Shown here: positions 1-47,259 of the stretch, in pieces
Numbering within the stretch: position 1 is the first letter of the stretch
Layout: the number at the start of each line of letters is the position of its first letter
Assembly: GCA_030705825.1 (NCBI GenBank)
Contig: JAUZPR010000006.1
Coordinates: 1 to 58,517, forward strand
Direction of reading: 5' to 3'
DNA length: 58,517 bases
Source of the DNA: Bacillota bacterium
Lineage (GTDB): Bacteria > Bacillota > Clostridia > Acetivibrionales > JANLFN01
The notes under the pieces: generated by a model
The model's input: only the letters and a program-made list of their open reading frames with translations
Told to the model about the DNA's origin: nothing
Databases searched by the model: none
Position numbers and translations under genes: made by a program

Positions 1-1248
1 ACATCACAGCCGGAATACTGGGACAAGGTGGAAAAGCTTGTGGGTGGAGCTCCTTCAACTTTAAACCTGATATTTCCGGAAGTCTATCTTGGTAAAATTG
101 ATGAAAATAAAAAGATTGAAAAAATTAATAGTACAATGAAGAAATACCTGTCGGGCGGTATTTTATCTGCCCAAAAAACCGGATTTGTTCTTATAGACAG
201 GAAAACGTGCAAGGTTGCTTCAAGAAAAGGTTTAATAATGGCTGTTGACCTTGAAATGTATGATTACAGCAAAGGCTCCCAGTCTCTTATCAGGGCAACC
301 GAAGCAACTGTAGTTGACAGGCTTCCTCCCAGAATCAAAATCAGGGAAAATGCTTCGGTGGAAATTCCCCATATAATGATTCTTATTGATGACGAGGAAA
401 AAACAGTTATTGAGCCGATTGCAGAAAAAAAGGCATGTTCGGAAAAACTCTACGATTTTGAATTGATGCTTGGTGGTGGACATGTCAGAGGCTGCAGCAT
501 AACAGATGCTGAAGATATAGAATCTATATTGGGAGCACTTTCCAGGCTTGCAGAACCATCCTCTTTTTCAAAAAGGTATAATGTACAAAACAAAGGTGTC
601 CTGCTATTTGCAGTAGGTGACGGAAATCACTCCCTTGCAGCGGCAAAGGGGCACTGGGAAAATGTAAAGAAAAGCCTTTTACCTGAAGAAATTGAAACCC
701 ATCCGGCAAGATTTGCTTTGGTGGAGCTTGTTAATGTCCATGACCAAGGTCTTGAATTTGAGCCTATACACAGGGTCGTTTTTAACGTTGACCCCGAAGA
801 TCTGCTTGAGAAGATGCAAAAATACTTCAAGAATTATTCAGGAGTAACCTTAAGATACTTCAATAATCCAAATCAAATGAATGACGAAGCCAAAAAGCTG
901 TCAAACCCGGGCAAGGCACACCTAATCAGGTTTGTAACCTCAAAGTCACAGGGAATTATAGCAGTTGAACAACCCAAATACAACCTTGAGGTAGGTACTC
1001 TTCAGTCATTTCTTGATGATTACTTGAAAAGCTACAGTACCTGCAAAATAGATTACATCCATGGTGATAATACTGTTATTGATTTGGGCTCAAGAGACAA
1101 TTCTATAGGCTTCCTGCTTCCGGTAATGAAGAAGGAGGATCTTTTCAAAACGGTGATTCTGGAAGGCGTCCTGCCTCGGAAGACCTTCTCCATGGGAGAA
1201 GCCGAGGAGAAAAGGTATTATCTTGAATGTAGGAAAATAGTTAAATAA
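1..1248 (+). CDS. DUF1015 family protein (5' end outside window)
   Basis: The reading frame is open from base 1 (first codon aca), so the true start lies upstream; the GTG at 28 is an internal codon. About 415 residues are visible. The text resembles the DUF1015 family, a conserved bacterial family of about 400 residues with no established reaction: an early PEVYLG stretch, a central GDGNHSLAAAKGHW motif near residues 200-213 and a late DYIHGDN segment. GDGNHSLAAA is the most telling signature. There is no signal peptide and no membrane segment, so the protein should be cytosolic. A rho-independent terminator follows directly. Family assignment is by recognised motifs; function is unknown. 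Confidence 0.85.
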   Translation, partial: TSQPEYWDKVEKLVGGAPSTLNLIFPEVYLGKIDENKKIEKINSTMKKYLSGGILSAQKTGFVLIDRKTCKVASRKGLIMAVDLEMYDYSKGSQSLIRATEATVVDRLPPRIKIRENASVEIPHIMILIDDEEKTVIEPIAEKKACSEKLYDFELMLGGGHVRGCSITDAEDIESILGALSRLAEPSSFSKRYNVQNKGVLLFAVGDGNHSLAAAKGHWENVKKSLLPEEIETHPARFALVELVNVHDQGLEFEPIHRVVFNVDPEDLLEKMQKYFKNYSGVTLRYFNNPNQMNDEAKKLSNPGKAHLIRFVTSKSQGIIAVEQPKYNLEVGTLQSFLDDYLKSYSTCKIDYIHGDNTVIDLGSRDNSIGFLLPVMKKEDLFKTVILEGVLPRKTFSMGEAEEKRYYLECRKIVK

Positions 1249-1270
1249 AATCTCTAAATCTTGTTTATAG

Positions 1271-1301
1271 CAGGGGTGAACACCAATTCACCCCTGTTTT
1301 T
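1271..1301 (+). terminator. Rho-independent terminator of the DUF1015 gene
   Basis: A perfect 10-bp stem (CAGGGGTGAA at 1271-1280 with TTCACCCCTG at 1287-1296) is followed by a run of five T. The other strand has no T-run, so it serves the + strand gene; the convergent glycosyltransferase ends at 1308. Confidence 0.9.
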
Positions 1302-1307
1302 ATTTCT

Positions 1308-2669
1308 TTAACCCTTATTTATGAATTTCTTAAATTCTTCTAAAAATGCCATCCTGCCTATTGTATTTTTTCTTACCGAAGTCTTTAGTATATGAAATTC
1401 CCCGGTCAGAGTGGGAAGATTCCACTGAGCCTTTGATGAAAGGCTGTTAATTATTCCCGCAATACGTATCCAGTAAAGAACAAACCTGTATAAGGGCATA
1501 ACAAAGCAAATATACCAGTGTTTCCTTAAATATCTTCTTACTGAATTCTGACCCTTAAGATACCGTTCTGAAACTGCCAGATACAAAAAGCTGTTCAACA
1601 GATAGGCCGTATAAAGCAGAAGGTTGGCACCTATCAACAGCTGTAGCGGATAATTTATAAAAAACAGATATATCAAGGCAAAGAACCAGATAAATCTCGG
1701 AAATGCCAAGGTGTGATCCGATACTATTATCCTCATGGAAAACTTTTTAAAATAATCTTTTATACTTCCGGTATGCATTTCTTTAAATAGGCTTGCAACC
1801 TCCAGTTCTCCCCTCTGCCACCTTTGTCTCTGAATATAGAGTTTATCAATACTTTCTATTGGATCAGTATATAAAAAGGCATTGCTGCATAGCTTAATCT
1901 TACCCCCTGCGAATCTTCTTATCTGGAAGGTCATATGGGTATCTTCCCCAATAGTATCGGAATTGTATAGCTGCGTTTTAAGCAGGGCTTCCTTTCTGAA
2001 GCACGAAAATGCCCCCGACATGGTAAAAATGGAATCGGTCATAGATTGAAAGCTTCTGCCCACAAGAAAGGTTTCGGTATATTCAAACAATTCACATTTT
2101 TGAATAAGCTTCATACCCTTACTTTTACTCTGTTCTATACATACCGGGTCAATCAGTACAACTCCTGTCATGCAGTTTATTTTTTTATCGGATTCAAACT
2201 TAGCGGCCACGCTTCTTATTGCATCCTTATCTAGCCATCCGTCACTGTCTATATTTATCAGATACCTTGCAGAACTGCTGAAAATACCCTTGTTCAGTGC
2301 TTTGGACTTACCTCTGCCTGAATTTAACCACCTGATTTTCATATTTGGATGAGCCCGCTGAAAACCTTGGAAAACCTCAAAACTGCCATCTTCTTTTCCA
2401 TTATTAACAAGAATAATCTCTATCCTGCTGTTCGGATAGTTTTGACCTGCAATGGAGTCAAGACATTTTCCAATTGTATTTACTGAATTGAAGACAGGCA
2501 CTATTACCGTCACTTCAGGCATGAAGTCAAGCTTTATATGCTTATTTTTCCGGTATCCTGAAGCTGTAAAAATTCCGCTTACAATACCCGTGATTATCTC
2601 CCATATCAAAGGTATGACAAGCCAGACGCTCCAGAATATGAACTGCTGCAAAATCCTACCTGTTTCCAC
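1308..2669 (-). CDS. Family 2 glycosyltransferase, exosortase G-associated
   Basis: Membrane-bound GT2 enzyme, matching the glycosyltransferase type that accompanies exosortase G in Gram-positive bacteria. It has an N-terminal membrane segment, then a GT-A domain opening with PEVTVIVPVFNS, a DSDGW metal-binding motif, a later GEDTHMT segment and the QRQRW motif of processive GT2 enzymes, then C-terminal membrane segments. The frame is open to a TTG at 2720, which would overlap the exosortase gene by 65 bases. A GTG at 2669 preceded by GGTGAG at 7 bases looks better, and a TTG at 2651 is also possible. It is the last gene of the cassette transcribed leftward from 7864. The sugar donor and acceptor cannot be read from sequence; a role in glycosylating or anchoring the sorted protein is inference. 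Confidence 0.85.
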   Translation of the reverse strand: METGRILQQFIFWSVWLVIPLIWEIITGIVSGIFTASGYRKNKHIKLDFMPEVTVIVPVFNSVNTIGKCLDSIAGQNYPNSRIEIILVNNGKEDGSFEVFQGFQRAHPNMKIRWLNSGRGKSKALNKGIFSSSARYLINIDSDGWLDKDAIRSVAAKFESDKKINCMTGVVLIDPVCIEQSKSKGMKLIQKCELFEYTETFLVGRSFQSMTDSIFTMSGAFSCFRKEALLKTQLYNSDTIGEDTHMTFQIRRFAGGKIKLCSNAFLYTDPIESIDKLYIQRQRWQRGELEVASLFKEMHTGSIKDYFKKFSMRIIVSDHTLAFPRFIWFFALIYLFFINYPLQLLIGANLLLYTAYLLNSFLYLAVSERYLKGQNSVRRYLRKHWYICFVMPLYRFVLYWIRIAGIINSLSSKAQWNLPTLTGEFHILKTSVRKNTIGRMAFLEEFKKFINKG

Positions 2670-3243
2670 CAGCCGGCTCACCAACCTTCTGCTTAAGAAT
2701 ATGGGGCTTTGTAAAAACAATATAATAAAGAATAACTGTCAGTATAAAAAAGAGGAATCTGGCAATTACAGTATGACTTATAAAGAATGCCGCCGGCCCG
2801 AATAATTTAACAATGCTGCATATCACAAATATTCTTGCAACATTTGCAGCAAAAATATAGAAAGCACCCGCCGCTGCAAGAAACCCCTTCATCCTCCATG
2901 AATACAATGGGTAGAATGACAGAAGGCAAATATATACCAATGTTTCAATTATTCCCGAGCATTCATAGTCTATAAAAAAGGAAACTGCCTGCAGCTTGTA
3001 ATTAACGGTAACTGACAAATAGCCGGGGTAAGCCGATATCATTCCTGTAACCTTTCCGAATATATACATAATATAGGTAACACCATACCCGAGATAACTC
3101 TCGATAGTACCGGTTCCCATGTACATAAGCAACAGGAACATACCTATGCTGCCGGCTGCGAACAGGAAGAAAGCCATGTTTTTTCTTTTAAGCAAAACCA
3201 ACAAAAGAATCCATAATATTAATAGAAAGGATACAAATATCAC
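2656..3243 (-). CDS. xrtG: Exosortase family protein XrtG
   Basis: Polytopic membrane transpeptidase-like protein of 195 residues, a normal length for Gram-positive exosortases. The three residues typical of the exosortase/archaeosortase superfamily are all visible: Cys in DYECSGIIE (about residue 95), Arg in ANVARI (about 137) and His in SHTVIARF (about 156), each beside a membrane helix. Exosortases are thought to cleave a C-terminal tripartite signal and transfer the protein to an acceptor. The start is a GTG whose GTGA overlaps the stop of the preceding substrate gene by 4 bases, so the two are translationally coupled. Assignment rests on the catalytic motifs and the neighbouring genes, which match the known XrtG neighbourhood. 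Confidence 0.88.
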   Translation of the reverse strand: MIFVSFLLILWILLLVLLKRKNMAFFLFAAGSIGMFLLLMYMGTGTIESYLGYGVTYIMYIFGKVTGMISAYPGYLSVTVNYKLQAVSFFIDYECSGIIETLVYICLLSFYPLYSWRMKGFLAAAGAFYIFAANVARIFVICSIVKLFGPAAFFISHTVIARFLFFILTVILYYIVFTKPHILKQKVGEPAGGNR

Positions 3244-3980
3244 TCTGGCTCACCTCTTCGTTTTCTCTTTCCAACCGACATAACAGAGATAAATCCTGAT
3301 AAAACTATTAAGACCGATACTGAAGCAGTAAAAACTGGAAAGGTCGAGATAGTGGAAATGGTTATATACCCCGAATCCGGAGCCCTGTCTCTGCCGCTCT
3401 GATAATAAAGTTCAACCTGATATCCGCTTTTAGTGCTGCTTGCCAGCTGTGAAAGCGGTATATAAAATCCAACCCTGTTTGCCGTATTTTCATCATCCCC
3501 CCATAACCCTCCGGTACTCCAAAGGTATTGTCCCTTTTCGTTAAGAAGAAGTACAATAACCCATCTTGTATAAGGATGGTAAAAAACATAAGCTGTCCTG
3601 TTTCCCGAATCGGTTTTAAAATTTGCCGAAAACAGCCAATAGGTATATTTATATGAGTTTGAATTAAAATTTCCGATTATGTCCTTATAAAGGTCATCAT
3701 ATTTCAAATCCTTTTCTTTAGAATTTCCTTTAGTATTGTTTCCCGATCCCTGCTGCCTTTCACAGTACAGATAAAGGTTCCCTGCGGACGAGTCAGGATA
3801 CCATTTCATATTTACCATGTCCATAAAAGAGGACTCATCCCCTTTAGGATCGGATAATGAGGGTTTGTCAGCCCAGTCTGAAAAATTACCGTCAAGAGTG
3901 ATTCCCGATGCAGCCATTACCGGTATAGGAACATACAAAATACATATAACAACAAAAATCACAATAATAAATTTTTTCAT
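3240..3980 (-). CDS. Firmicu-CTERM-type exosortase substrate with CBM9-like domain
   Basis: Exported protein of 246 residues. It starts with a signal peptide (MKKFIIVIFVV through VMAAS) and continues with a segment resembling carbohydrate-binding CBM9/DOMON-like domains (ITLDGNFSDW, NLYLYCER). It ends with the three-part sorting signal: a polar linker, one membrane helix (about 20 residues from FTASVSVLIVL) and a basic tail GKRKRRGEPE. This is the pattern of the Firmicu-CTERM domain recognised by XrtG. A TTG at 3992 also opens the frame, but AAGGTGGG touches it; the ATG at 3980 lies 12 bases from that site and is preferred. It is the only protein in the window with such a tail. What it binds on the outside is unknown. 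Confidence 0.82.
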   Translation of the reverse strand: MKKFIIVIFVVICILYVPIPVMAASGITLDGNFSDWADKPSLSDPKGDESSFMDMVNMKWYPDSSAGNLYLYCERQQGSGNNTKGNSKEKDLKYDDLYKDIIGNFNSNSYKYTYWLFSANFKTDSGNRTAYVFYHPYTRWVIVLLLNEKGQYLWSTGGLWGDDENTANRVGFYIPLSQLASSTKSGYQVELYYQSGRDRAPDSGYITISTISTFPVFTASVSVLIVLSGFISVMSVGKRKRRGEPE

Positions 3981-4018
3981 AATCGGTTTCAACCCACCTT
4001 ATATACAAGTTTCCTCAT

Positions 4019-7000
4019 TTAAAGCAGAATCTCTTTTTTCTTTTTTATTGAAACAAATAAAAGTAAGAATACTGCTGCAAGTCCGGCTGTACTTAAGCCA
4101 ATTCCTTCCGCTAGATAGGGATAATTAACCCTTATCTTTAATTCATTGTTTTTCATATATATAAGGTTATGGATACTTTCATAGGTTCCGGTAATGCTTG
4201 CAAAAGAATCCAGAGCCGATACCGGGGTGAGTGTATCCCGGCTTTCCGCCTTTATATCAAGTACATTATTTTTGTTATTGATATCAAGCCTGATGATCCT
4301 TCTTTCGGGAAGAACATTTTCTTTTAAACCTGTTATCTGTTCAAGCAGCTTTATTACACTTTCATCCTTGGTTTGAAGTGCAAAAAAAGGAAGGTTAAAG
4401 CCCATGATTTCAATATTCTGATTGAATTTTGTACCTATGAAATTCATGTTCTGGTTGGAATAATATGTGTTTCCCTGTACTCCGTCCAGATTTTCAAGAT
4501 ACTCTGTTTTCCATCTGCTGTATTCCTTTGGTATGCTGTTCAGTATATCAATTTTGTTGTTGTCAAACTCAAGCAAGGGATATTTTCCGTTGAATTGGAC
4601 AGGCTGAGCCGATACGCCCAAAAACTCCGGCCTGGACGAAAAAACATCAGGCTGGGCACCGGTCATATCTATAATTACTTTTACACCTTTTTGTGAAACC
4701 GTTTTAATCAAGGCTTCTGCTTTAGACTTATTCCTGTATTCAAAACCGGATAGGAAGATCACTCTGTATTTTGACAGCTGTTCCTGGGTGTAATCATCTA
4801 TAAAATAACTTCCTCCGGTTTGCAATTGCGGAAACATATATGCAAGATTAGGTGCATATTTGCCGATACCTAACCCTTCATACTCCGGTTTTGTCCCAAA
4901 GGTGTAATTAAAAGGGAGCCTTAAAACCATAATTTTGTCAGATTTATAAACAGGCTTATAGCCTGCCTCTGAAGCGCTGTTAAGCATATCCGCTTGGTCC
5001 TTGAACTTATCGTTCTTTATTATAATTGTATCTGCACCCAATTCAAGACACCTATCAAAGGCAAAAGGTAGCCAGTTATTTTCTACAGCAGTATTTATCC
5101 AGACTATGTTACCTGAGGTTTCAGCTCCCTGCCATGCCCACCCGTATACCTGGCTAATGTTTTTTCCTGCTGGATTGTCACTCAGGTAATAACCTGGATA
5201 AGATCCGAAGGTACTCAGGTCAAGAACAGCTATCTTATGACCGGCCAGGTTTACTGCATGTTCAAGATCTTCAGATATGGCTGGAGGGGTTACACCAAAA
5301 GCCAAAACGCTGAATGAAATAAAGCAATCCACTGCTACAAGCAATAAAAGGGAAATAAGAATGCTTTTTCTTAGAGGGTCCCAGAATAACAGTCCAACAA
5401 AGAATATCCCCATTGCAAAGGGAGTAAAGCGTTCCATCCAGAAGAGCTGGTTGAGCGGCATTTTTTCAATCAAAGGTGCTGTTATTGACAGGGTCCCTAT
5501 AAAAAACAGAATTACCAAACCGAAAGCACCTCTGCTTTTTTTGTTTCCGAACAACAAACCGGCAAATGAAACTATTATTACAGACAGTCCGAAATAGAAT
5601 GCTTCCCTGTTCTGGGTCAGCCTGATCAAAGGGTTAAGCGACTGCGTAAGAGGATGCGATAGCTGCAAGGCAAGAGACGATAGTGCTCCCTGGTCAATTG
5701 AAAACATGCCTCCTTTTAGTGCGGGATATAACCAAACTCCGGCAAGCATAATTCCTGCTACTGCAAAAGCCAGTGCTTCCAAACACTGTCTCAGCTTCCT
5801 CCGGGACAAGCCATACCACAAAAGAAACGCAAACATGGTAATGCCTGCCATAGCTGCAATCATTGCATGGCATAAGGTTATCAGAAACATAAGGACAGCA
5901 ATTAAAAGTCCCGTGGTTCTTTTCCTTTTTTCAACATACAGCCAGACAGCCAGCAGCAAATACGGAAAAATCACACCGACTGCTGCTCTTGGCAGATTAC
6001 CTTCCGAAAACAGTACTCTAAGGTTGTCAGGTATAAAAAACCATAAAAATCCAAGCAGCAGGCCCAATATCTGTCTATTGGTCTTAATGCCCCAGAAAAC
6101 CCAACCAAAGGCGCCTGTTATAAATAGAGCTGCCATAAATAGCGAATAGGACACCGGAATACTGCCATGGCTGATAAAAAGAAACAAAGTATACAAGTAA
6201 TAAGGAAAAGGTGCCCAGTACCTGAAAGGCTGAATTCCGTTGTACCACAAATCAGTATAAAGCGGGAATATGTTCCCGGATTTTATGCTCTTGTAAAGCA
6301 GATCAGCCTTGAATATATGGCCCCAAGTATCCGAACCCCATGGATATGCACCGTTTCCGGTAATATATAGTATTAAAACAACTGTAGTCGGTAATATGAT
6401 ACAGAGGGAAAGTAAAAGGAATTTTTTATTTTTTCTCAAGGATGTTTTATTATCAAAATTACCGTCCTTAATATCACTGATCATTAATACATTTGAGCCA
6501 TCCCCCGGCTTACCGGATATAATCCCTGTGCCCTTATCCATTTCAATTATCTCTTCTTCACTTTCTAACTTATCTGGAACAGGTGCTATCGGGTTTTCAG
6601 GCTCCAATGTTTCAAGTTCATAGGATAAACCTGTTGCCTCGACCAGCCTTGTAATTGAGTCCTCGATTTTATCATTTTTAGAAACAATATATGTTCTTGC
6701 GGGATTCTCGCTTATTTCAAGGGATTCGAGAAGCCAGCCCGACTTTTCGGATATGGCTGATATTTTTTCAAAGAAAAAATCCCCTATATTCTCCATAGTC
6801 GGATTACATGAAGAAAAAAGGGGAGTTTCGTTCAAAAGGCACCCCTCAAACTCTGAAAAATAGGCATGTATTTCATTTTCTATCTCACTGAACTGCCAGA
6901 AAGTATCCCCTTCTTTTTTGATATAAAGTACAAACTCCCATGTATGGGGATGGATTCCGCTTTCGCCTGTTCCTATTCTTATATTGTGTCTGGCATTCAG

Positions 7001-7033
7001 GTAAAACCTGAAACGGTATGATCTTGTTGCCAT
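4019..7033 (-). CDS. Exosortase G-associated membrane protein with N-terminal 6-pyruvoyl-tetrahydropterin synthase-like domain
   Basis: A 1004-residue two-part protein. Residues 1-130 resemble 6-pyruvoyl tetrahydropterin synthase, including the zinc-ligand pattern ARHNI then HPHTWEF and the NPTMENIG motif. After an acidic linker, residues about 200-620 form a polytopic membrane domain of more than ten helices, starting near KFLLLSLCIILP and containing WGSDTWGHIFK, reminiscent of membrane glycosyltransferases/mannosyltransferases. Residues 620-960 look extracytoplasmic, and a last helix plus KKKK tail anchors the C-terminus. The start ATG has AGAGG at 7 bases. It sits 48 bases after the DPM1-like glycosyltransferase gene and just before the sortable substrate. 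A PTPS-related domain of this kind is known from XrtG loci. Its reaction is unknown and pterin synthesis is unlikely given the fusion. Confidence 0.8.
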   Translation of the reverse strand: MATRSYRFRFYLNARHNIRIGTGESGIHPHTWEFVLYIKKEGDTFWQFSEIENEIHAYFSEFEGCLLNETPLFSSCNPTMENIGDFFFEKISAISEKSGWLLESLEISENPARTYIVSKNDKIEDSITRLVEATGLSYELETLEPENPIAPVPDKLESEEEIIEMDKGTGIISGKPGDGSNVLMISDIKDGNFDNKTSLRKNKKFLLLSLCIILPTTVVLILYITGNGAYPWGSDTWGHIFKADLLYKSIKSGNIFPLYTDLWYNGIQPFRYWAPFPYYLYTLFLFISHGSIPVSYSLFMAALFITGAFGWVFWGIKTNRQILGLLLGFLWFFIPDNLRVLFSEGNLPRAAVGVIFPYLLLAVWLYVEKRKRTTGLLIAVLMFLITLCHAMIAAMAGITMFAFLLWYGLSRRKLRQCLEALAFAVAGIMLAGVWLYPALKGGMFSIDQGALSSLALQLSHPLTQSLNPLIRLTQNREAFYFGLSVIIVSFAGLLFGNKKSRGAFGLVILFFIGTLSITAPLIEKMPLNQLFWMERFTPFAMGIFFVGLLFWDPLRKSILISLLLLVAVDCFISFSVLAFGVTPPAISEDLEHAVNLAGHKIAVLDLSTFGSYPGYYLSDNPAGKNISQVYGWAWQGAETSGNIVWINTAVENNWLPFAFDRCLELGADTIIIKNDKFKDQADMLNSASEAGYKPVYKSDKIMVLRLPFNYTFGTKPEYEGLGIGKYAPNLAYMFPQLQTGGSYFIDDYTQEQLSKYRVIFLSGFEYRNKSKAEALIKTVSQKGVKVIIDMTGAQPDVFSSRPEFLGVSAQPVQFNGKYPLLEFDNNKIDILNSIPKEYSRWKTEYLENLDGVQGNTYYSNQNMNFIGTKFNQNIEIMGFNLPFFALQTKDESVIKLLEQITGLKENVLPERRIIRLDINNKNNVLDIKAESRDTLTPVSALDSFASITGTYESIHNLIYMKNNELKIRVNYPYLAEGIGLSTAGLAAVFLLLFVSIKKKKEILL

Positions 7034-7081
7034 GTTTGTTCCTCTTGTCTAAGGCGTGTTGTTTAAGCAATACCAAAACTG

Positions 7082-7864
7082 TTATTTATAGAGGCTTTCC
7101 ACCGAATCTTTGCTTGCTAAAGGCATCTGAACCTTTGCAAGCAGCATAAAATAACCCTTGATTGTTTTTGGTATATTCATTTTGCTTTTGCCTTCTTTTA
7201 AATCATATTGAAGAATCAGAGGGAATTCCCCCGCCCTAATACCTATTTTGCAGAATTTGGCAAGCAGTTCGGCCATACAGTCGAAACCATTCGTTGTTAT
7301 AAGCCTGTTCCGGTATATTTCAGCCGCTTTCCTCAAATAACCTATGTTGTATGCCCTGAAACCACTGGAATAATCAGTTATATTGGCAATAGGAAAAAAG
7401 GTTTTAAAAAAAATCAAAGCTCCTCTGCTGAATAATTTTCTAATCAGCGGGACTCCGTTCTCCATGCTGCCAGGAGTAAAACGTGACGCAACTACAAGAT
7501 CAAGGCTTTCCCGGTAAAGTTTCAGGCACATATCAGAAATAATAAAAGGATCATGGGTATTATCCGCATCCAAAGTTACCAGAATGTCATTGTCGGAATA
7601 TTTGTCAATAGCAGTGTTTATAAGGATTTTGACAGCTTCCCCCAAGCCCATGTTTTTCGAGTTGTTTATATAGTGAACATATTCATACTTGCCCGAATTA
7701 GCTTTTAATATCTCACCGGTCCTGTCGGTACTGCCATCATTAACAACCAATACATCCATTCTGCTGCCCATTTTTTTACGTAAAACTTTAAGCTTTTCAA
7801 AGAGCTTTGGCAGAGCAGCTTCTTCGTTATATGCCGGGAGACCGATTACAATTCTCTTTTCCAT
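7082..7864 (-). CDS. Family 2 glycosyltransferase, DPM1/polyprenyl-phosphate type
   Basis: Soluble GT2 enzyme of 260 residues, first gene of the XrtG cassette. It opens with IVIGLPAYNEE, followed by VVNDGSTDRT and the metal-binding LDADNTHDP. It lacks the C-terminal membrane helices of many relatives, so it resembles dolichol- or polyprenyl-phosphate mannosyl/glucosyl transferases that charge a lipid carrier. A GTG at 7876 extends the frame, but GTGAGG lies 6 bases before the ATG at 7864, which decides the start. In context it probably supplies a lipid-linked sugar to the large membrane protein or to the second glycosyltransferase (inference). Confidence 0.82.
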   Translation of the reverse strand: MEKRIVIGLPAYNEEAALPKLFEKLKVLRKKMGSRMDVLVVNDGSTDRTGEILKANSGKYEYVHYINNSKNMGLGEAVKILINTAIDKYSDNDILVTLDADNTHDPFIISDMCLKLYRESLDLVVASRFTPGSMENGVPLIRKLFSRGALIFFKTFFPIANITDYSSGFRAYNIGYLRKAAEIYRNRLITTNGFDCMAELLAKFCKIGIRAGEFPLILQYDLKEGKSKMNIPKTIKGYFMLLAKVQMPLASKDSVESLYK

Positions 7865-8051
7865 AAGTAACCTCACAGTAATGATGTTAGTTTACATAAT
7901 ACTGTGATTATAACATTAAATAAATGTCTTTTTAAAAGGCAATTATTTCTTAAAACACAATCAGATTAGATATTACTCAACTCTCCGAGTAACACATGTT
8001 TGTTTCGAGACATAAAATATAGTTGAATGATTTAAAATCCGGTGAAAATAA

Positions 8052-9512
8052 ATGAGAAGAGGCTATTATTATAATTTCGGCAAGCCCGAACCCGTCTCAA
8101 GCAAACCCGAACCAAAAGACAGCCAGATCAGCTCTCCTTCAGACATAATTGAAAAAGACTTCCGTGGGGGTATAATTGACCAGCATAAAAAGATTGAAAT
8201 GTATTTATTCACCTTGTTTGATAAAGCCATGCTGCCGCGTGAGTATACAAGTCCTGCTCCTATCAAGAGCGGTACAACCATGCTGGAAGAAGTCCACAGG
8301 TATATTAAAAGAAAAGATGCAAATGGCGAGCTGGTTAACAAGGTACGTGCATACATTTCGGCAGCTGTACCTTCGCTTGAAAAGGAATACCTGAGCCAGA
8401 GCAAATTTTTCAAAATACGTTATACGACAACAGGTACAAATTCCGTACCTGGGGATGATACAAACCGGAACGGAATACCTGATTATGTAGAAGCAGTAGC
8501 GGCAGCCTTTGAGAATGCTAAAGCTGTAACTTGTGGGCAAAGAGGCTTCAAGACCCCTATTCTGGATTCAGGCAAACCATCTATGGATATCAACTTATAC
8601 GACCTGAATGGAAAATACGGGATTACCTTTCCCCAAAAATCCTATACCAAGGATAATGGTTTAAGGCTTACATCAAGTTCAATAAGTATCGATAACAATT
8701 ATTCATCTCAAAAGGGATTCAAGGAAGCAAGCCTCGATTGCATGAAAGTTACCGCTGCACATGAATTTTTCCATGCCGTTCAAAATTCCTACAATGCCGA
8801 TTCGGATTCATGGTGGAAAGAGGCTTCGGCAACCTGGAACGAAGATGAAGTATATGACGGTGTCAACGATTATCTGCAATATCTCGGAAAATATATGTCT
8901 TCACCGGGAATGCCGCTTGACCAGACCAGCTACAGCGGTGTAATATTTGTAAAATTCATATCGGAATACTGGGGCGGTTATGAAACGGTAAAAAGCATAT
9001 GGGATACCCAGGCAAAGCGTTATAGAAACAGTGTGAATGCAATCGACACTGCAATAAAATCCAAATATAGAATTGAAGATCTCGGAAGTATTTATAACAG
9101 ATTTACAGCTTGTAACTATAATCCATCCCAGTACTATAAGGAAGGATACCTATGGAATACCACAGTCGCCCTGCAAGATACAATCGAGAAATATCCTTCT
9201 GAAGGGATAAAAGGCACTCTGAGCCATCTTTCATCAAATTACACCTTGTTTAAAGCAGGAAACTCCGCTAAAACATTAAAAGTCCAGGTTCAGGGAACAT
9301 CTGGCACTCAGTGGGGATTCAAGGTTGTCAAAAGAAGGTCGTCGGATAAGAAATGTGAAGCCGTCAGCATACCCTTTGACTCCAGGACAAATACCAGTGA
9401 ATTTATATGCGAAGGCTTCGGAAGTACGTATAACGAGGTCTGCCTTGTATGCTCCAATCTCGATAAGACCTCCGATGGAGGGGTATACACTGTTAAGGCA
9501 AGTGTGGAGTAG
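8052..9512 (+). CDS. Putative zinc metalloprotease (MXAN_6640-like)
   Basis: 486-residue protein with a clear gluzincin-type active site: HEFFH at residues 237-241 and a downstream WWKEASATWNEDEV segment that supplies the likely third ligand. Residues near 130-145 (GDDTNRNGIPDYVE) look like a calcium-binding thrombospondin type 3/dockerin-like loop, common in secreted enzymes. This layout fits the MXAN_6640 family of putative metalloproteases. The N-terminus (MRRGYYYNFGKPEP) carries no signal peptide, which is odd for a protein with such domains. The start ATG is preceded by GGTG at about 7 bases. It is a single gene with its own upstream region, divergent from the XrtG cassette, followed by a hairpin. 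The substrate is unknown. Confidence 0.75.
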   Translation: MRRGYYYNFGKPEPVSSKPEPKDSQISSPSDIIEKDFRGGIIDQHKKIEMYLFTLFDKAMLPREYTSPAPIKSGTTMLEEVHRYIKRKDANGELVNKVRAYISAAVPSLEKEYLSQSKFFKIRYTTTGTNSVPGDDTNRNGIPDYVEAVAAAFENAKAVTCGQRGFKTPILDSGKPSMDINLYDLNGKYGITFPQKSYTKDNGLRLTSSSISIDNNYSSQKGFKEASLDCMKVTAAHEFFHAVQNSYNADSDSWWKEASATWNEDEVYDGVNDYLQYLGKYMSSPGMPLDQTSYSGVIFVKFISEYWGGYETVKSIWDTQAKRYRNSVNAIDTAIKSKYRIEDLGSIYNRFTACNYNPSQYYKEGYLWNTTVALQDTIEKYPSEGIKGTLSHLSSNYTLFKAGNSAKTLKVQVQGTSGTQWGFKVVKRRSSDKKCEAVSIPFDSRTNTSEFICEGFGSTYNEVCLVCSNLDKTSDGGVYTVKASVE

Positions 9513-41534: not shown

Positions 41535-42716
41535 CTAATACTTTTTCGGGTTAAATCTTCCATTTTCATCATAATTGATTGATTGAGTATACCCACAAGC
41601 ATTCCAAATGCTATCAAATACAGGTCTAAGTAACAAATCAATTTCTGTATTAAAATCTTCAAGTATGATAACTTCTGAGCTCAATATTTCTCTATCTATT
41701 TTATATTCAATCCCTCTGTAAAAGTTAAAACTTTTTGGCATTTCATATCCTTTAACACCCGTTAATGTAATAAAAATAAAGTATGGCAACTCAACCTTAA
41801 CTTCTTTTAAAAAGTCAATATATTGCTTTGTACTTTTTATTAATGCTTCTTCGAATGCAACATATGGTATAAATTTTTGACTTTCATCTGCGCTAGATAG
41901 TAACGATGATTCAACAGCTTCAATAATCCCATTCTTATATAGTTGAGTATATGCATCCACTTTTCCAGCTTCTATTGCTTCTGAATATAATATCATTCCC
42001 TCAAAATTTATTCTCTTTCTCGATGCTCCGTAATATATGGTATTGAAGAACTGATTGTTAAATACACTTTTTATATCAATTTTTTCAGCCTTTATATTAA
42101 AAGCTGATATAGGAACTATTTGTAATACAATGTTTGATTTGGTATTTAGTCTCAATAATGTTTCACCAGCAACTATATTAGCAATTCTGTCATTTTTGAA
42201 ATTCTGTATTTTTTCACTTAATGATTCAGATAAAACAAATGCACTCCTAAGCTCATCCACATCAAGCTGGTATACCCCATTACTGCTTCTTGCGAAAAAT
42301 CTACTCCAATTTTGAAATGTGACACAATGTGGGCTACGCCAACTTTTTGGGATGCGAATTACTAATGCCTTTTTGTTATCAGCAACATCGATTGGTTGAA
42401 TTTTTATTCCTGGTATTCTTGGCTGAACTCCTTGTCTAACCAGATCTTCAATCCAACGAATTTTAGAGTCTATTTCTTCATTATAAATACCTATTATTTC
42501 AGCCGGTACACCATTCTCCTCTTTTATACCATAAATAATGTCTCCACCACTTGAATTAGCGAATGAAGTAATGTCCTTCAAGAATTCACGTTTATCACTA
42601 TCACTGTTGCCAGAAAACTTCTCTTTATAATCCAGTGTTTTCTTTTCAAGGACAGAATCATTTACCAATAGTAATAAATCATCTCTATTAATATTTTCTA
42701 TCGGTTTTTGAATCAT
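41535..42716 (-). CDS. AlbA_2 (Schlafen-like) domain protein
   Basis: 393 residues. The N-terminal AlbA_2 domain (residues about 10-170) shows LDYKEKFSG, FLKDITSFANSSGGDIIYGI and RSPHCVTFQNWSRFFAR, the usual ATP-binding-protein/Schlafen AlbA_2 landmarks. The C-terminal half matches nothing I know. Proteins with this domain are often found in mobile and defence gene sets, though many have no proven role. GTG at 42719 and ATG at 42716 both follow GGGAG at 7-10 bases, so the start is uncertain by one codon. Composition is more AT-rich than the core genes on either side. Confidence 0.75.
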   Translation of the reverse strand: MIQKPIENINRDDLLLLVNDSVLEKKTLDYKEKFSGNSDSDKREFLKDITSFANSSGGDIIYGIKEENGVPAEIIGIYNEEIDSKIRWIEDLVRQGVQPRIPGIKIQPIDVADNKKALVIRIPKSWRSPHCVTFQNWSRFFARSSNGVYQLDVDELRSAFVLSESLSEKIQNFKNDRIANIVAGETLLRLNTKSNIVLQIVPISAFNIKAEKIDIKSVFNNQFFNTIYYGASRKRINFEGMILYSEAIEAGKVDAYTQLYKNGIIEAVESSLLSSADESQKFIPYVAFEEALIKSTKQYIDFLKEVKVELPYFIFITLTGVKGYEMPKSFNFYRGIEYKIDREILSSEVIILEDFNTEIDLLLRPVFDSIWNACGYTQSINYDENGRFNPKKY

Positions 42717-42894
42717 CACTATTCAACTCCCTTCACCAAAATTTTACACTAATAGAAGAAGAATCACAACTGAAATAGAAATTCGTCCACTCTCAAATAA
42801 ACGTTTGCATCTATATCTCGTATAAGGTTTACTTTTGCGTCACCATATATTTGGGCATATACATAAATTCTAAATTAGAAGGCGATTGATATCA

Positions 42895-43035
42895 ATGAAA
42901 AGAGTATCAACAACATTAGAAACTAGCTCTGGAAGAAATGTAAAATTTCATGACAACTACAACAACCAAAATATGAGTAGACCACAGTTTGTTAAAGAAA
43001 TTAATAATGGAATACATCCGATAATTCGTTCGTAA
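42895..43035 (+). CDS. Small protein, possibly truncated
   Basis: 46 residues: MKRVSTTLETSSGRNVKFHD, then NNQNMSRPQFVKEINNG. I recall similar N-terminal text in longer small proteins of unknown function, where the chain continues beyond this point, so this may be a truncated copy. AGAAGG lies 12 bases upstream. Only + strand frame in the block; no promoter clearly seen. Confidence 0.45.
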   Translation: MKRVSTTLETSSGRNVKFHDNYNNQNMSRPQFVKEINNGIHPIIRS

Positions 43036-43043
43036 TCTTCTTC

Positions 43044-43115
43044 CTATACACCAAGTTGTTCATCAGTGTAATCCAGACCATCAATTTCCAACTTTAATCT
43101 CTGTAAATTTGTCAT
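43044..43115 (-). pseudogene. Short remnant ORF with strong ribosome site
   Basis: 23 codons, MTNLQRLKLEIDGLDYTDEQ, behind AAGGAGGG at 6 bases. The text resembles the start of small phage-associated proteins, cut short by a stop at 43044. Likely a fragment left by deletion. Confidence 0.4.
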
Positions 43116-43174
43116 GCTCTGACCCTCCTTTTCATATTTTGTAATAAAAAACTGGCTTTTACACCAGTTATACT

Positions 43175-44935
43175 TTAAACAACAATATTCAATTGCTTTA
43201 ATTTGTTCCTTAAATTCTGTATTGTTATTGGTTCATTAAAGAACCACTCAATTAAGTTTATCCCATTTTCCGTACAGAGTTTCTTTTTTCTATTATCTAA
43301 CTCAACACGTTTATTGAAGTCCTCTTCTCCACCAAAGTATTTTGTAGGCTCAAAGTGCTGTAATCCTTGATACTCGAAAGCACAATTTATTTCAGGTGCA
43401 AATACATCAATCCTTTGTGGTCTAAGCCAATTCGGAGAATACTGCATTGTAGCTTCTGGAAAGTTTTTCTTAATCAACTCAAACATTGCCGATTCAGATT
43501 TCCACTTTGATGGTATTACCTTTTCTAAAACCAATTTTTCTTCTATTTTCTTCAATGTATTCTTTAAAGCATCTTCATCTGACCATTGACCAATAGCATT
43601 AAAACAGTACATACACCTATCCAGCATCTTTTTTTGAATCCCAATAAGATAATCCTTAAGCTGTGATTTAAACACAAAGCCATGATGAGCCATTAATTTA
43701 TCTAATACATCCTCAATATAACGCCTAAAATCAATATTAAAAAATTCCTTAAAATGTTCACTATGTAAAGTATCACAATATTTAATCAAATATTTAATAT
43801 CTATACCATAAATTCTTATTCCATAAAGAACCTCTCTTAAAAAACCAATAGGTTTAAAATTATAAAGCATCAGTTCTAAATCCATCATCTGCTCTTTTGA
43901 ATATACTACTTGATGGTTTTCGGTGTCATCTAATGGGCATTCATTCTTAATGATTTCATGTTTCAATGCACATTTTGCCAGTTCACACGCTATATAGTAT
44001 CTTTTACTTGGAATTTTAGTGAAGTAAAACTTGAACTCATTTAAAGTAATATCATTGACTGCTTCTGCTTCCCTTTCTTTAGGTTGTAGATGTTTAGGCA
44101 AAAGAAAACTTGCATCAACTTCTTGGTTCGTAAGATTTACTCTTGTATCTTGCCAAAATCGGCTATCAACAGATTTTCTGCAAACAGTTTTTTCACCAAT
44201 ATCAAGAGAATAATTTATTAAACTAAGTTCTTCATTTTCATCTTCCAATTCATTTTTTATATACATAATACTATTTGATTTTTTATTATACTTATATTCA
44301 GACTTCGTAAATTTATCAATTAAGATTGGTCTTTCATTGGACACATAATATAAATCGCCATCCACAATTGTGTTTTTATATGGAGTGTAGCAAATAAAAC
44401 TTATTGTATCATTAGGGTTTTTTATTAATGTAATACTTATCCCATCAATTCTTTTAATTATCTCCTTGCTTTTATCTTCATTTAATGTATAAACATTTAA
44501 ATTATTATAGAAAAAGGCTAACATTTTTTCAGGTATTGCTTTTGTATAAAATACTTTTATATCTCCATTACCTTTTTGTATATATGCATAGTTTACATGT
44601 TCATCAATTATCTTGATATAACCATCTTTCGCAACACATAAGTCACCTGTTCTTTCTCGAAAGTCTCGCCTATATTCTCCTGATAGTTTCATATTTCTTA
44701 TAAAAACAATCGTAGACGTATCTGCTGATAAATAAACTACTTGAACATTTTTACCAAGTAGTAATGGATTGGAACTAATTCTCTTCAAATAGCATTCTGT
44801 GTCAAACTTATGGTAAATTAGAATACCTATCTCTCTGGAAAAGTAAAAGTCCTCCAATACATTTGTTGCTAATAGTCTTTTCTCATTTTTTTCATATATA
44901 AAAAGATTCTTTTCCTTGTCATACTCATATCTCAT
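43175..44935 (-). CDS. Protein with beta-propeller-like N-terminus and C-terminal Vsr-like endonuclease domain
   Basis: 586 residues. The first 240 residues are beta-rich with short repeats (DFYFSREIGILIYHK, GDLYYVSNERPILID, KYNKKSNSIMYIKNE) that look like a beta-propeller. The middle is helical with a possible MYCFNAIG turn. The last 100 residues fit a very-short-patch-repair/PD-(D/E)xK endonuclease fold: RIDVFAPEINCAFEYQGLQH and GGEEDFNKRVELDNRKKKLC, with Asp and Glu in the catalytic positions. Frame open to 44974, but GGTGGGGG precedes the ATG at 44935, 17 bases after the partner gene's stop. Immediately downstream of, and probably cotranscribed with, the DUF3883-like gene. No methylase is nearby, so a classical restriction system is unlikely. 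Confidence 0.65.
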   Translation of the reverse strand: MRYEYDKEKNLFIYEKNEKRLLATNVLEDFYFSREIGILIYHKFDTECYLKRISSNPLLLGKNVQVVYLSADTSTIVFIRNMKLSGEYRRDFRERTGDLCVAKDGYIKIIDEHVNYAYIQKGNGDIKVFYTKAIPEKMLAFFYNNLNVYTLNEDKSKEIIKRIDGISITLIKNPNDTISFICYTPYKNTIVDGDLYYVSNERPILIDKFTKSEYKYNKKSNSIMYIKNELEDENEELSLINYSLDIGEKTVCRKSVDSRFWQDTRVNLTNQEVDASFLLPKHLQPKEREAEAVNDITLNEFKFYFTKIPSKRYYIACELAKCALKHEIIKNECPLDDTENHQVVYSKEQMMDLELMLYNFKPIGFLREVLYGIRIYGIDIKYLIKYCDTLHSEHFKEFFNIDFRRYIEDVLDKLMAHHGFVFKSQLKDYLIGIQKKMLDRCMYCFNAIGQWSDEDALKNTLKKIEEKLVLEKVIPSKWKSESAMFELIKKNFPEATMQYSPNWLRPQRIDVFAPEINCAFEYQGLQHFEPTKYFGGEEDFNKRVELDNRKKKLCTENGINLIEWFFNEPITIQNLRNKLKQLNIVV

Positions 44936-44952
44936 TATGCCCCCACCATTTT

Positions 44953-46347
44953 TCAAATAATACCTACTCTCCATTGGTATGTTTCAAATTTATACTTTGA
45001 ACTATCAAAAATATTATTAATAATTGTTACAATAACATCATCACTACAATCTGCCAATATGTTTTCCACCCTATAAATAGAGTACCGCTTACCCTCATTT
45101 ATCAATTTTTCTGCAACTTTCCTTTCATGTTCAGATATATAGAAAGGCAATCCGACATTTTCAGATGTTTTGACTTCAATAAAAATCTCAGTTCCATCCA
45201 ACTCAAATGATAAAATATCATAACCATTGGTTTCATCATCAGACTTACTCTCGAGCATGTAACAATAATCAGTATTCTTCAATTTTTCAAACTCTCTATC
45301 AAATACAAACGCTTCTCCCAAATCCCCTATCTCAATTTGCTTTTTATGTCTACTAAGATAGTCAGTTTTTAAGTACTTTTTCTTAAGTTGCTCAAAAGTA
45401 TAAATTGCAGATAAATTTGTTTTCGGCTCATTAGATTCTATTTGCTCTTGTTCAATTTCATCTATACTGTATTTAGTGTTTTTTTTTAGTTCCTCTGAAC
45501 ATTTCTTGCAAACTATTCTTCCGTTTACTGAAACCCAGTTTTCAAAATTATTCTTGTATGCTTGCTCACAGTTAAAGCATACAATTCTTACTGCATCTCG
45601 GGTATTCTTTATTTCTGTGGGTGTGAGATTATCTAGTCCTACCATATTACCTAAATTTTTAATACACTTATCTAAGTCTCCAAAACCGTTTTTATTCCTT
45701 TTGTGATACTCGTACCAGAATTCCTGACAATTTTCAGGTAAAACTATTTCATTACCCTCGCTGTCTAATACGCCTTTCTCAGTGTAAGAATCCCTTTTTA
45801 TTTCTCTAATATATACTGGTAATAAATTTGTTTCAAACAATAAGTACCAAGCGACAAAGCATCTTACTATATTTTTTCGTTCTACTGTCTGCTTTACTAA
45901 ATCTTCAATGTCATTGAGTTTACCAAAATCTATTATTTTCTTTTTTGGTTCATGAGAAGTTTCCACTACAATTTTATTTTCTTTCACACCATATATTTTT
46001 TTATCAAAATAGTTCTTTTTGTCTGCTTTTATCCAAATATCATCAAATCTAGTATCATTAATTATGTCATAAGCGTACAAGTACTCAAAAAAGGTTTTAA
46101 TAAAAGTGCCCTTTTTACTTTTTGTATTTTCTTCCTCAATTAACTCATTGATAAAATTAAAATCCTCCATTGTCAGGTTCTTAATATCGTACTTTTCAAT
46201 AAAGTAAAATAAAAAACCCAAAGCACTCCTATACCCTCGGAAATCTTTATACAATTTAAAGAAATTATCTATATGAAGTTTACTTTCTAAAGTAAACTTA
46301 GGTTCAATGATTTTAAATGGATATATTGACTGATTCTTTTTAGCCAC
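44953..46347 (-). CDS. DUF3883-like nuclease-domain protein with zinc ribbon
   Basis: 464 residues. The N-terminal 100 residues are helical and recall the SAM-like core-binding domain of tyrosine recombinases. A central CFNCEQAY...IVCKKCSEEL (about residues 257-287) forms a four-cysteine zinc site. The C-terminus (about 345-440) resembles DUF3883, a PD-(D/E)xK-type fold: GDLGEAFVFDREFEKL, GYDILSFELDGTEIFIEVKT with the EVK motif, and ISEHERKVAEK. GTG start with GGGAG at 9 bases. It heads a two-gene unit with the Vsr-like gene. Function unknown; a nucleic-acid-targeting role is inferred from both nuclease-like ends. Confidence 0.65.
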   Translation of the reverse strand: MAKKNQSIYPFKIIEPKFTLESKLHIDNFFKLYKDFRGYRSALGFLFYFIEKYDIKNLTMEDFNFINELIEEENTKSKKGTFIKTFFEYLYAYDIINDTRFDDIWIKADKKNYFDKKIYGVKENKIVVETSHEPKKKIIDFGKLNDIEDLVKQTVERKNIVRCFVAWYLLFETNLLPVYIREIKRDSYTEKGVLDSEGNEIVLPENCQEFWYEYHKRNKNGFGDLDKCIKNLGNMVGLDNLTPTEIKNTRDAVRIVCFNCEQAYKNNFENWVSVNGRIVCKKCSEELKKNTKYSIDEIEQEQIESNEPKTNLSAIYTFEQLKKKYLKTDYLSRHKKQIEIGDLGEAFVFDREFEKLKNTDYCYMLESKSDDETNGYDILSFELDGTEIFIEVKTSENVGLPFYISEHERKVAEKLINEGKRYSIYRVENILADCSDDVIVTIINNIFDSSKYKFETYQWRVGII

Positions 46348-46929: not shown

Positions 46930-47005
46930 TGGTGAACCATCCGCGACTCGAACGCGGGACACCTTAATTAAAAGTCAAGTGCTCTGCCAACTGAGCTAAT
47001 GGTCC
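46930..47005 (-). tRNA. tRNA-Lys (anticodon TTT)
   Basis: Complete cloverleaf on the - strand: acceptor GGACCAT/ATGGTTC, D arm TTAGCTCAGTTGGCAGAGC, anticodon loop CTTTTAA reading TTT, T arm GCGTTCGAGTCGC, encoded CCA. It is the last tRNA of the operon and borders the accessory block. Confidence 0.96.
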
Positions 47006-47008
47006 GTG

Positions 47009-47085
47009 TGGCTGGGATGGCTGGACTCGAACCAACGAAATGCCAGAGTCAAAGTCTGGTGCCTTACCGGCTTGGCTACATCCCA
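47009..47085 (-). tRNA. tRNA-Gln (anticodon TTG)
   Basis: Acceptor TGGGATG/CATCCCA with G discriminator, anticodon stem CCAGA/TCTGG with loop CTTTGAC reading TTG, T arm with GGTTCGAGTCC, encoded CCA. Three bases separate it from tRNA-Lys. Confidence 0.96.
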
Positions 47086-47106
47086 ATATATAAAGTTTTG
47101 ATTTTA

Positions 47107-47176
47107 GAGGCCGGATACCAGATGCAGGAAAAGCGTAAACCTTATTCGCGTCTTCCGACGTCTGGTATCCGGCCTC
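47107..47176. repeat. Long hairpin between tRNA-Gln and tRNA-His
   Basis: GAGGCCGGATACCAGA (47107-47122) and its exact reverse complement (47161-47176) form a 16-bp stem over a 38-base loop. It lies inside the tRNA operon. It could be an inserted repeat or an RNA-processing signal. Confidence 0.7.
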
Positions 47177-47181
47177 ATTTT

Positions 47182-47259
47182 TGGGGTGATTAGTGGGACT
47201 CGAACCCACGGCCTCCAGGGCCACAACCTGGCGCTCTAACCAACTGGGCTATAACCACC
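47182..47259 (-). tRNA. tRNA-His (anticodon GTG)
   Basis: Has the extra G(-1) paired with C73, acceptor GTGGTTA/TAATCAC, anticodon stem CCAGG/CCTGG with loop TTGTGGC reading GTG, T arm GGGTTCGAGTCCC, encoded CCA. First tRNA of the operon. Confidence 0.96.

Follow-up and report, generated by a model that had tools for sequence, protein, structure and literature searches.

A five-gene exosortase G operon from a Clostridia genome, fusions of its partner protein in related loci, and a tentative role in surface-polysaccharide synthesis

The DNA analysed here, referred to as the window, is a stretch of 58,517 nucleotides from contig JAUZPR010000006.1 of a Clostridia genome (Bacillota bacterium, GCA_030705825.1), in which five consecutive minus-strand open reading frames (ORFs) at 1308-7864 form a complete exosortase G (XrtG) operon. 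We read this operon, tentatively and at somewhat less than an even chance, as a machine that makes a surface polysaccharide by a synthase-dependent route and has a single dedicated partner of the exosortase, the Firmicu-CTERM protein, a reading that draws on the gene set and on comparison with related loci. The operon itself is an ordinary, complete member of a known, unstudied kind (TIGR03110/03111/03112/04145), and the part worth following lies elsewhere, in natural fusions of the partner to XrtG (Firmicu-CTERM::XrtG). Many substrates are predicted for bacterial exosortases, of whose biochemistry very little has been described; a system of five genes, with a single enzyme and a single partner, offers a tractable case. 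The natural dead-site fusions make the purpose of the sorting reaction testable: if tethering replaces sorting, the reaction would serve to hold the protein at the membrane and not to release it.

Gene content of the operon

In order of transcription the genes encode a DPMS-like glycosyltransferase of the GT2 family, a membrane protein with PTPS-like and PF10131 domains, the Firmicu-CTERM protein, XrtG and an XrtG-associated GT2 (Table 1), and they are spaced along the operon by a 48-nucleotide gap, a 38-nucleotide gap, a 4-nucleotide overlap and an overlap of at most 65 nucleotides. Where the last gene starts is uncertain: TTG 2720 is the farthest upstream of the possible start codons, and the match to TIGR03111 sets in at residue 23. 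Profile searches placed XrtG well above the cut-off of its family (TIGR03110, 169.1 bits against 102.75), and membership is supported by the adjoining TIGR03111 (584 bits, cut-off 364) and TIGR03112 (122 bits, cut-off 69) genes. For comparison, 37 loci were used, namely the regions around 34 XrtG matches from other genomes plus three plasmid regions, with their ORFs classed by purpose-built profiles; the tree left out a distant exosortase (L046) and a chimeric reading frame (L074), giving 36 XrtG proteins including that of the window. The three catalytic residues of the window XrtG align with all unfused relatives and are invariant there.

The first-pass annotation, made from the sequence alone, had described a locus of the XrtG type with XrtG-associated genes, in which five overlapping or closely spaced minus-strand genes encode an exosortase with intact Cys/Arg/His motifs, two GT2 enzymes, a PTPS-like membrane protein and a single local substrate with a membrane-helix-plus-basic-tail signal. 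The ORF coordinates and profile matches agree with that description, and the single substrate holds genome-wide, as the host genome (3.65 Mb, 242 contigs) gave one TIGR03110, one TIGR04145 and one exosortase-superfamily match. No second convincing substrate was found in this genome with TIGR04145 and our own substrate profile, no free-form scan for sorting signals having been made. The only further match of our profile that touches the sorting-signal region, on contig C12 (E 1.7e-4), is an FtsX-type ABC permease and was rejected as a chance match; an even fainter match, on contig C234 (E 0.04), lies outside that region and was left unexamined.

The Firmicu-CTERM protein matches TIGR04145 over nearly the whole model (E 8e-10) at 38.9 bits, below the curated cut-off of 50, and the assignment is supported by its position next to xrtG and by homology to proteins encoded beside xrtG elsewhere. 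Its features are a signal peptide at the N-terminus, which ends in VMAA, a beta-rich domain with the motif LDGNFSDW, a pre-helix motif (DRAPDSGYITISTISTFP), a C-terminal transmembrane helix at about residues 216-234 and the basic tail GKRKRRGEPE. A CBM9/DOMON fold, suspected from LDGNFSDW, found no support: sequence searches of Pfam and PDB with the partner domain gave no match, and the AlphaFold2 model is weak (pLDDT 58), with all fold matches below Z 5. The top VIA fold match, to the ethylbenzene dehydrogenase gamma chain (2ivf_C, Z 4.7 over 124 residues), is within noise.

The membrane protein (PF10131, 558 bits; PF01242, 50 bits) begins with the PTPS-like domain (residues 1-118, window 6659-7033), which is followed by an estimated ten or so transmembrane segments, a 400-residue outer part and one C-terminal helix. 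The pattern WGSD..GH..K after the first transmembrane segment of the PF10131 protein and an aspartate in the first loop are conserved. The protein is probably a GT-C-type transferase, which we take from its architecture and the known features of the family; its AlphaFold2 model (pLDDT 38) is too poor for fold comparison. When the PTPS-like domain was compared with 31 related domains, the zinc triad His...HxH (H...HPH in the window) and the glutamate of SE[TN]P were kept in nearly all copies, and neither a conserved Cys before HxH nor a DH before LN was found. The copies thus lack the Cys and the Asp-His pair presumed to be catalytic in QueD, for which no solved structure to align was found. 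Two loci (L031 and L032) carry a further degenerate copy that lacks the histidines. Since the zinc histidines and the pterin-anchoring-type glutamate are kept and the catalytic Cys and Asp-His are absent, a ligand-sensing role for the domain is plausible, possibly as a pterin/purine sensor.

Of the two glycosyltransferases, the XrtG-associated GT2 has the motifs DSDG, GEDTH and QRQRW and about four transmembrane segments. Its nearest NCBIfam family of known function is poly-GlcNAc synthase (PgaC/IcaA-like TIGR03937, 133 bits, far under the cut-off of 422). The full processive signature (D, DxD, ED, QxxRW) is present in 34/34 aligned copies, among them a second paralogue at locus L038, with D141, D143, E242, D243, Q280, R283 and W284 invariant, and on this signature the enzyme probably polymerises sugar rather than glycosylating the partner protein. 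The DPMS-like GT2 (PF00535, E 1e-21), so called from its resemblance to dolichol-phosphate-mannose synthase, matches the Pyrococcus furiosus DPM synthase 5mlz by phmmer (E 2e-16) and has the DxD region LDADNTHD and no hydrophobic transmembrane segment. Its more likely task is to supply the PTPS/PF10131 membrane protein with a sugar donor of the lipid-phosphate type.

Partner fusions and loss of the catalytic cysteine

The Firmicu-CTERM domain is present at 36/36 kept loci, where the tandem copies number between one and three. A separate gene encodes it at 22 loci, usually beside xrtG (after the GT2 gene in L034), it forms the C-terminus of the PF10131 protein at four, and it is fused to the N-terminus of XrtG at ten, in nine genomes (Table 1). 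Where the partner is joined to the PF10131 protein, the PTPS domain can lie in the same ORF (L039, L045 and L072), an internal signal-peptidase-like site occurs in 3/3 cases with an extracted domain start, and the C-terminal helix and basic tail are kept in the full-length C-termini inspected.

The fusions to XrtG differ in the active site. The position of Cys95 holds Asn in nine of the ten and Ser in the other, whereas Cys is kept in 26/26 unfused XrtGs, six of which belong to the family that holds most of the fusions. Arg137 is retained in 10/10 fusions and His157 in 9/9 where covered. At all nine readable junctions the pre-helix motif (GDIQWxPFP) runs straight into XrtG helix 1, which leaves neither a separate sorting helix nor a basic tail. 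The N-termini read ...PPGSW(L/M/F)V... and have no AxA signal-peptidase site (6/6 extracted); unfused forms mostly have AxA.

The Firmicu-CTERM::XrtG fusions form one clade (support 98/95), a phylum-wide search with a fused protein returned fused forms in this clade only, and no other exosortase was found in the fusion-clade genomes. Within the clade the nonsynonymous divergence (dN) of the Cys-less XrtG ranges from 0.016 to 0.22 and the synonymous divergence (dS) from 0.18 to 2.05 or is saturated (ratio ~0.1), and 18 of 19 other near-invariant positions are largely or fully kept, the exceptions being a conservative Ile141-to-Val change and Phe177. With dN at roughly one tenth of dS and the majority of near-invariant positions kept, the Cys-less XrtG domain is, by these sequence measures, still under purifying selection. 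Neither pseudo-exosortases nor fusions of a substrate to an exosortase were found described in the literature searched, which did not include the founding survey by Haft and co-workers (2012), where Cys-less forms may be mentioned.

Proposed machine and competing explanations

In the polysaccharide machine that we propose, the TIGR03111 GT2 would polymerise and export a sugar chain, the DPMS-like GT2 would load sugar onto polyprenyl phosphate, the PTPS/PF10131 membrane protein would probably move that sugar, outside the membrane, to the chain or another acceptor, and the cytoplasmic PTPS-like domain would act as a ligand-binding, non-catalytic switch. The Firmicu-CTERM protein would be secreted with its beta-rich domain outside, beside the synthase; XrtG would then remove its C-terminal helix via Cys95 and transfer the protein to a membrane-held anchor, and the anchored protein would stay beside the synthase as a chain-handling or regulatory partner. 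What the sequence shows is the set of genes, their catalytic motifs, the lone partner and its fusions to Cys-less XrtG or to the PF10131 protein; we infer the polymerisation step, the anchor, the handling of sugar and a regulatory function of the PTPS domain.

Since the Cys-less fusions are under purifying selection and XrtG in them cannot make a glycan-attached or released cargo, the partner would be a membrane-held component of the machinery and not cargo. It apparently acts while tethered next to the synthase, and cleavage by XrtG probably does no more than fix it in that place. In the fusions, where both ends of the protein are bound to the membrane and the sortase is dead, the sortase can neither release nor transfer it, and the cassette is kept all the same; the reaction of XrtG at unfused loci, which are the majority and include the window, therefore likely serves membrane retention, a purpose read from one clade. 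A retention role agrees with archaeosortase A, whose substrates are cleaved and then anchored by a lipid and which needs Cys173/Arg214/Arg253 (PMC9263693, PMC7157517). We hold with a little more reserve than the machine as a whole the further possibility that the Firmicu-CTERM protein is an obligatory extracytoplasmic subunit of the polysaccharide synthase, fixed by XrtG, and that one clade replaced sorting with a Cys-less pseudo-exosortase fusion as a structural anchor.

Several points weigh against this proposal. Cleavage, anchor, polysaccharide and localisation are all predicted from sequence, the fold of the partner domain rests on a weak model with low-scoring matches, the GT-C identity of the PF10131 protein comes from architecture, its model being poor, and several loci have no DPMS-like GT2 or an unrelated enzyme in its stead. 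As the fusions form one clade, fusion and Cys loss are a single evolutionary event and the contrast of 10 with 26 does not amount to ten independent tests; the clade may also have altered its function after the fusion, which would make it less informative on the Cys-bearing XrtG of the window.

The constant linkage of XrtG, substrate and glycosyltransferase genes, the intact Cys/Arg/His of the unfused forms and the precedent of lipid anchoring by archaeosortases would also fit classic sorting, in which XrtG cleaves the partner and attaches it to a glycolipid or polysaccharide that the glycosyltransferases make, or these enzymes glycosylate the partner. We consider this rather unlikely: in the fusion clade, attachment is impossible by the known mechanism, as both the Cys and a cleavable helix are absent, and the glycosyltransferase genes and the XrtG fold are nevertheless kept under selection; the TIGR03111 GT2 resembles a chain polymerase and not a protein glycosyltransferase. 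The first-pass suggestion that the two glycosyltransferases add sugar to the sorted protein or make its anchor may still apply but is not the best reading, being weakened by the processive motifs, the DPMS-like second GT2 and the purifying selection on the Cys-less fusions.

Two other explanations accept less of the sorting reaction or give it another outcome. XrtG could be mainly a structural subunit that docks the partner to the synthase, with cleavage secondary or a matter of turnover and hence losable, and the Cys-less form does keep Arg, His and most invariant positions under purifying selection; the Cys of 26/26 unfused XrtGs, from several families, implies however that catalysis matters when the partner is separate, and we regard this account as improbable. 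Slightly more doubtful still is that XrtG releases the Firmicu-CTERM protein from the membrane, which would make it a secreted protein that binds carbohydrate or belongs to the matrix. Sorted proteins in the PEP-CTERM/exosortase precedent are thought to exit the membrane (PMC1569441), and tandem domain repeats at some loci would suit an adhesin, but the fused form is not releasable by XrtG.

Distribution, related systems and neighbouring genes

The XrtG cassette is sporadic in Clostridia and related classes: XrtG was found in 13/391 genomes of the window's class, in 13/398 sampled from its phylum and in 0/14 control genomes. It also occurs on plasmids of three genera (Aneurinibacillus, Lachnospira/[Eubacterium] eligens and Lactococcus), and a scan of viral contigs gave no XrtG. 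The cassettes of Lactiplantibacillus plantarum (LP_RS09075-09090), of the Lachnospira eligens megaplasmid and of Lactococcus plasmid pBV60 have the same genes in mostly the same order, and cassettes of the L. plantarum type, like that of the window, each have one exosortase and one dedicated partner (PMC12854382). The window differs from known XrtG cassettes in that the PTPS domain is fused to the PF10131 protein, the DPMS-like GT2 comes first and the substrate scores under the family cut-off. The L. plantarum operon is listed among genes overexpressed in interferon-inducing strains (PMC12854382), and the XrtG system is one table entry in PMC8951740. No biochemical study of the XrtG/Firmicu-CTERM system was found in the literature searched, in line with the first-pass statement that its biochemistry is undescribed.

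Better-known systems share parts of this design. ArtA of Haloferax volcanii is, like XrtG, a polytopic Cys/Arg enzyme with substrates bearing a tripartite C-terminal signal (motif, helix, basic tail), but its third catalytic residue is Arg253 where XrtG has His, and it sits with PssA, whereas XrtG has one partner and glycosyltransferase neighbours. EpsH/PEP-CTERM (XrtA-type) likewise links an exosortase to exopolysaccharide genes, with many substrates and in outer-membrane bacteria, in contrast to the one substrate of XrtG in Gram-positive-type genomes. PgaC/IcaA and the TIGR03111 GT2 have all processive motifs in common; the latter scores far under the PgaC/IcaA family cut-off and lacks PgaA/B/D or IcaB/C/D partners.

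Table 1. Features of the operon, its flanks and the fused partner proteins of related loci
Feature	Position	Strand	Evidence
GT2, dolichyl/polyprenyl-phosphate-hexose synthase-like, without transmembrane helix, first gene of the operon	7082..7864	-	PF00535, 5mlz phmmer match, DxD region
PTPS-like cytoplasmic domain, ~10-transmembrane PF10131 domain, extracytoplasmic region and C-terminal transmembrane helix	4019..7033	-	TIGR03112, PF10131, PF01242
Firmicu-CTERM protein, presumed XrtG partner/substrate	3240..3980	-	TIGR04145, alignments
XrtG exosortase, 195 residues, Cys95/Arg137/His157	2656..3243	-	TIGR03110, invariant catalytic residues
XrtG-associated GT2 (TIGR03111), membrane-bound, processive-synthase motifs; true start maybe downstream of 2720	1308..2720	-	TIGR03111, motif alignment
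Candidate sigma-70-type promoter of the operon, TTTAAA/TTAAAA - TATAAT, extended TG	7907..7936	-	consensus scan only, 31 sites against 20.2 expected
Strong 12-bp stem-loop with T-run, candidate terminator shared by the operon end and the convergent DUF1015 gene	1269..1298	.	consensus scan
DUF1015 gene, convergent with the operon	28-1248	+	profile match
MXAN_6640-family putative metalloprotease, divergent from the operon	8052-9512	+	206 bits
Firmicu-CTERM fused to PF10131 C-terminus	L039:9786-13676, L045:2013-5915, L072:10388-14251, L073:10371-12821
Firmicu-CTERM::XrtG fusions, ORFs of ~400 residues	L040, L041, L043, L044, L063, L067, L068, L069, L070, L071

Genes for second-messenger enzymes lie close to some related cassettes. 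On the conjugative Lactococcus plasmid pBV60, GGDEF and EAL genes stand directly upstream of the cassette (L049:4407-6098), a GGDEF-HD gene lies inside another (L032:11582-13366), and with genes nearby at L038 and L027, GGDEF-containing genes occur within the regions of four loci. These genes may point to second-messenger (cyclic di-GMP) control of the cassette, a tentative lead from four loci, which are too few for more.

Elsewhere in the window, a 599-residue protein with no Pfam match (43175-44974, minus strand) overlaps a NOV_C-domain protein (44953-46347, minus strand), an SLFN/AlbA_2 protein (41535-42719) adjoins this pair, and three tRNAs are near (46933-47258). The gene group at 41535-46347 might be a defence-type island.

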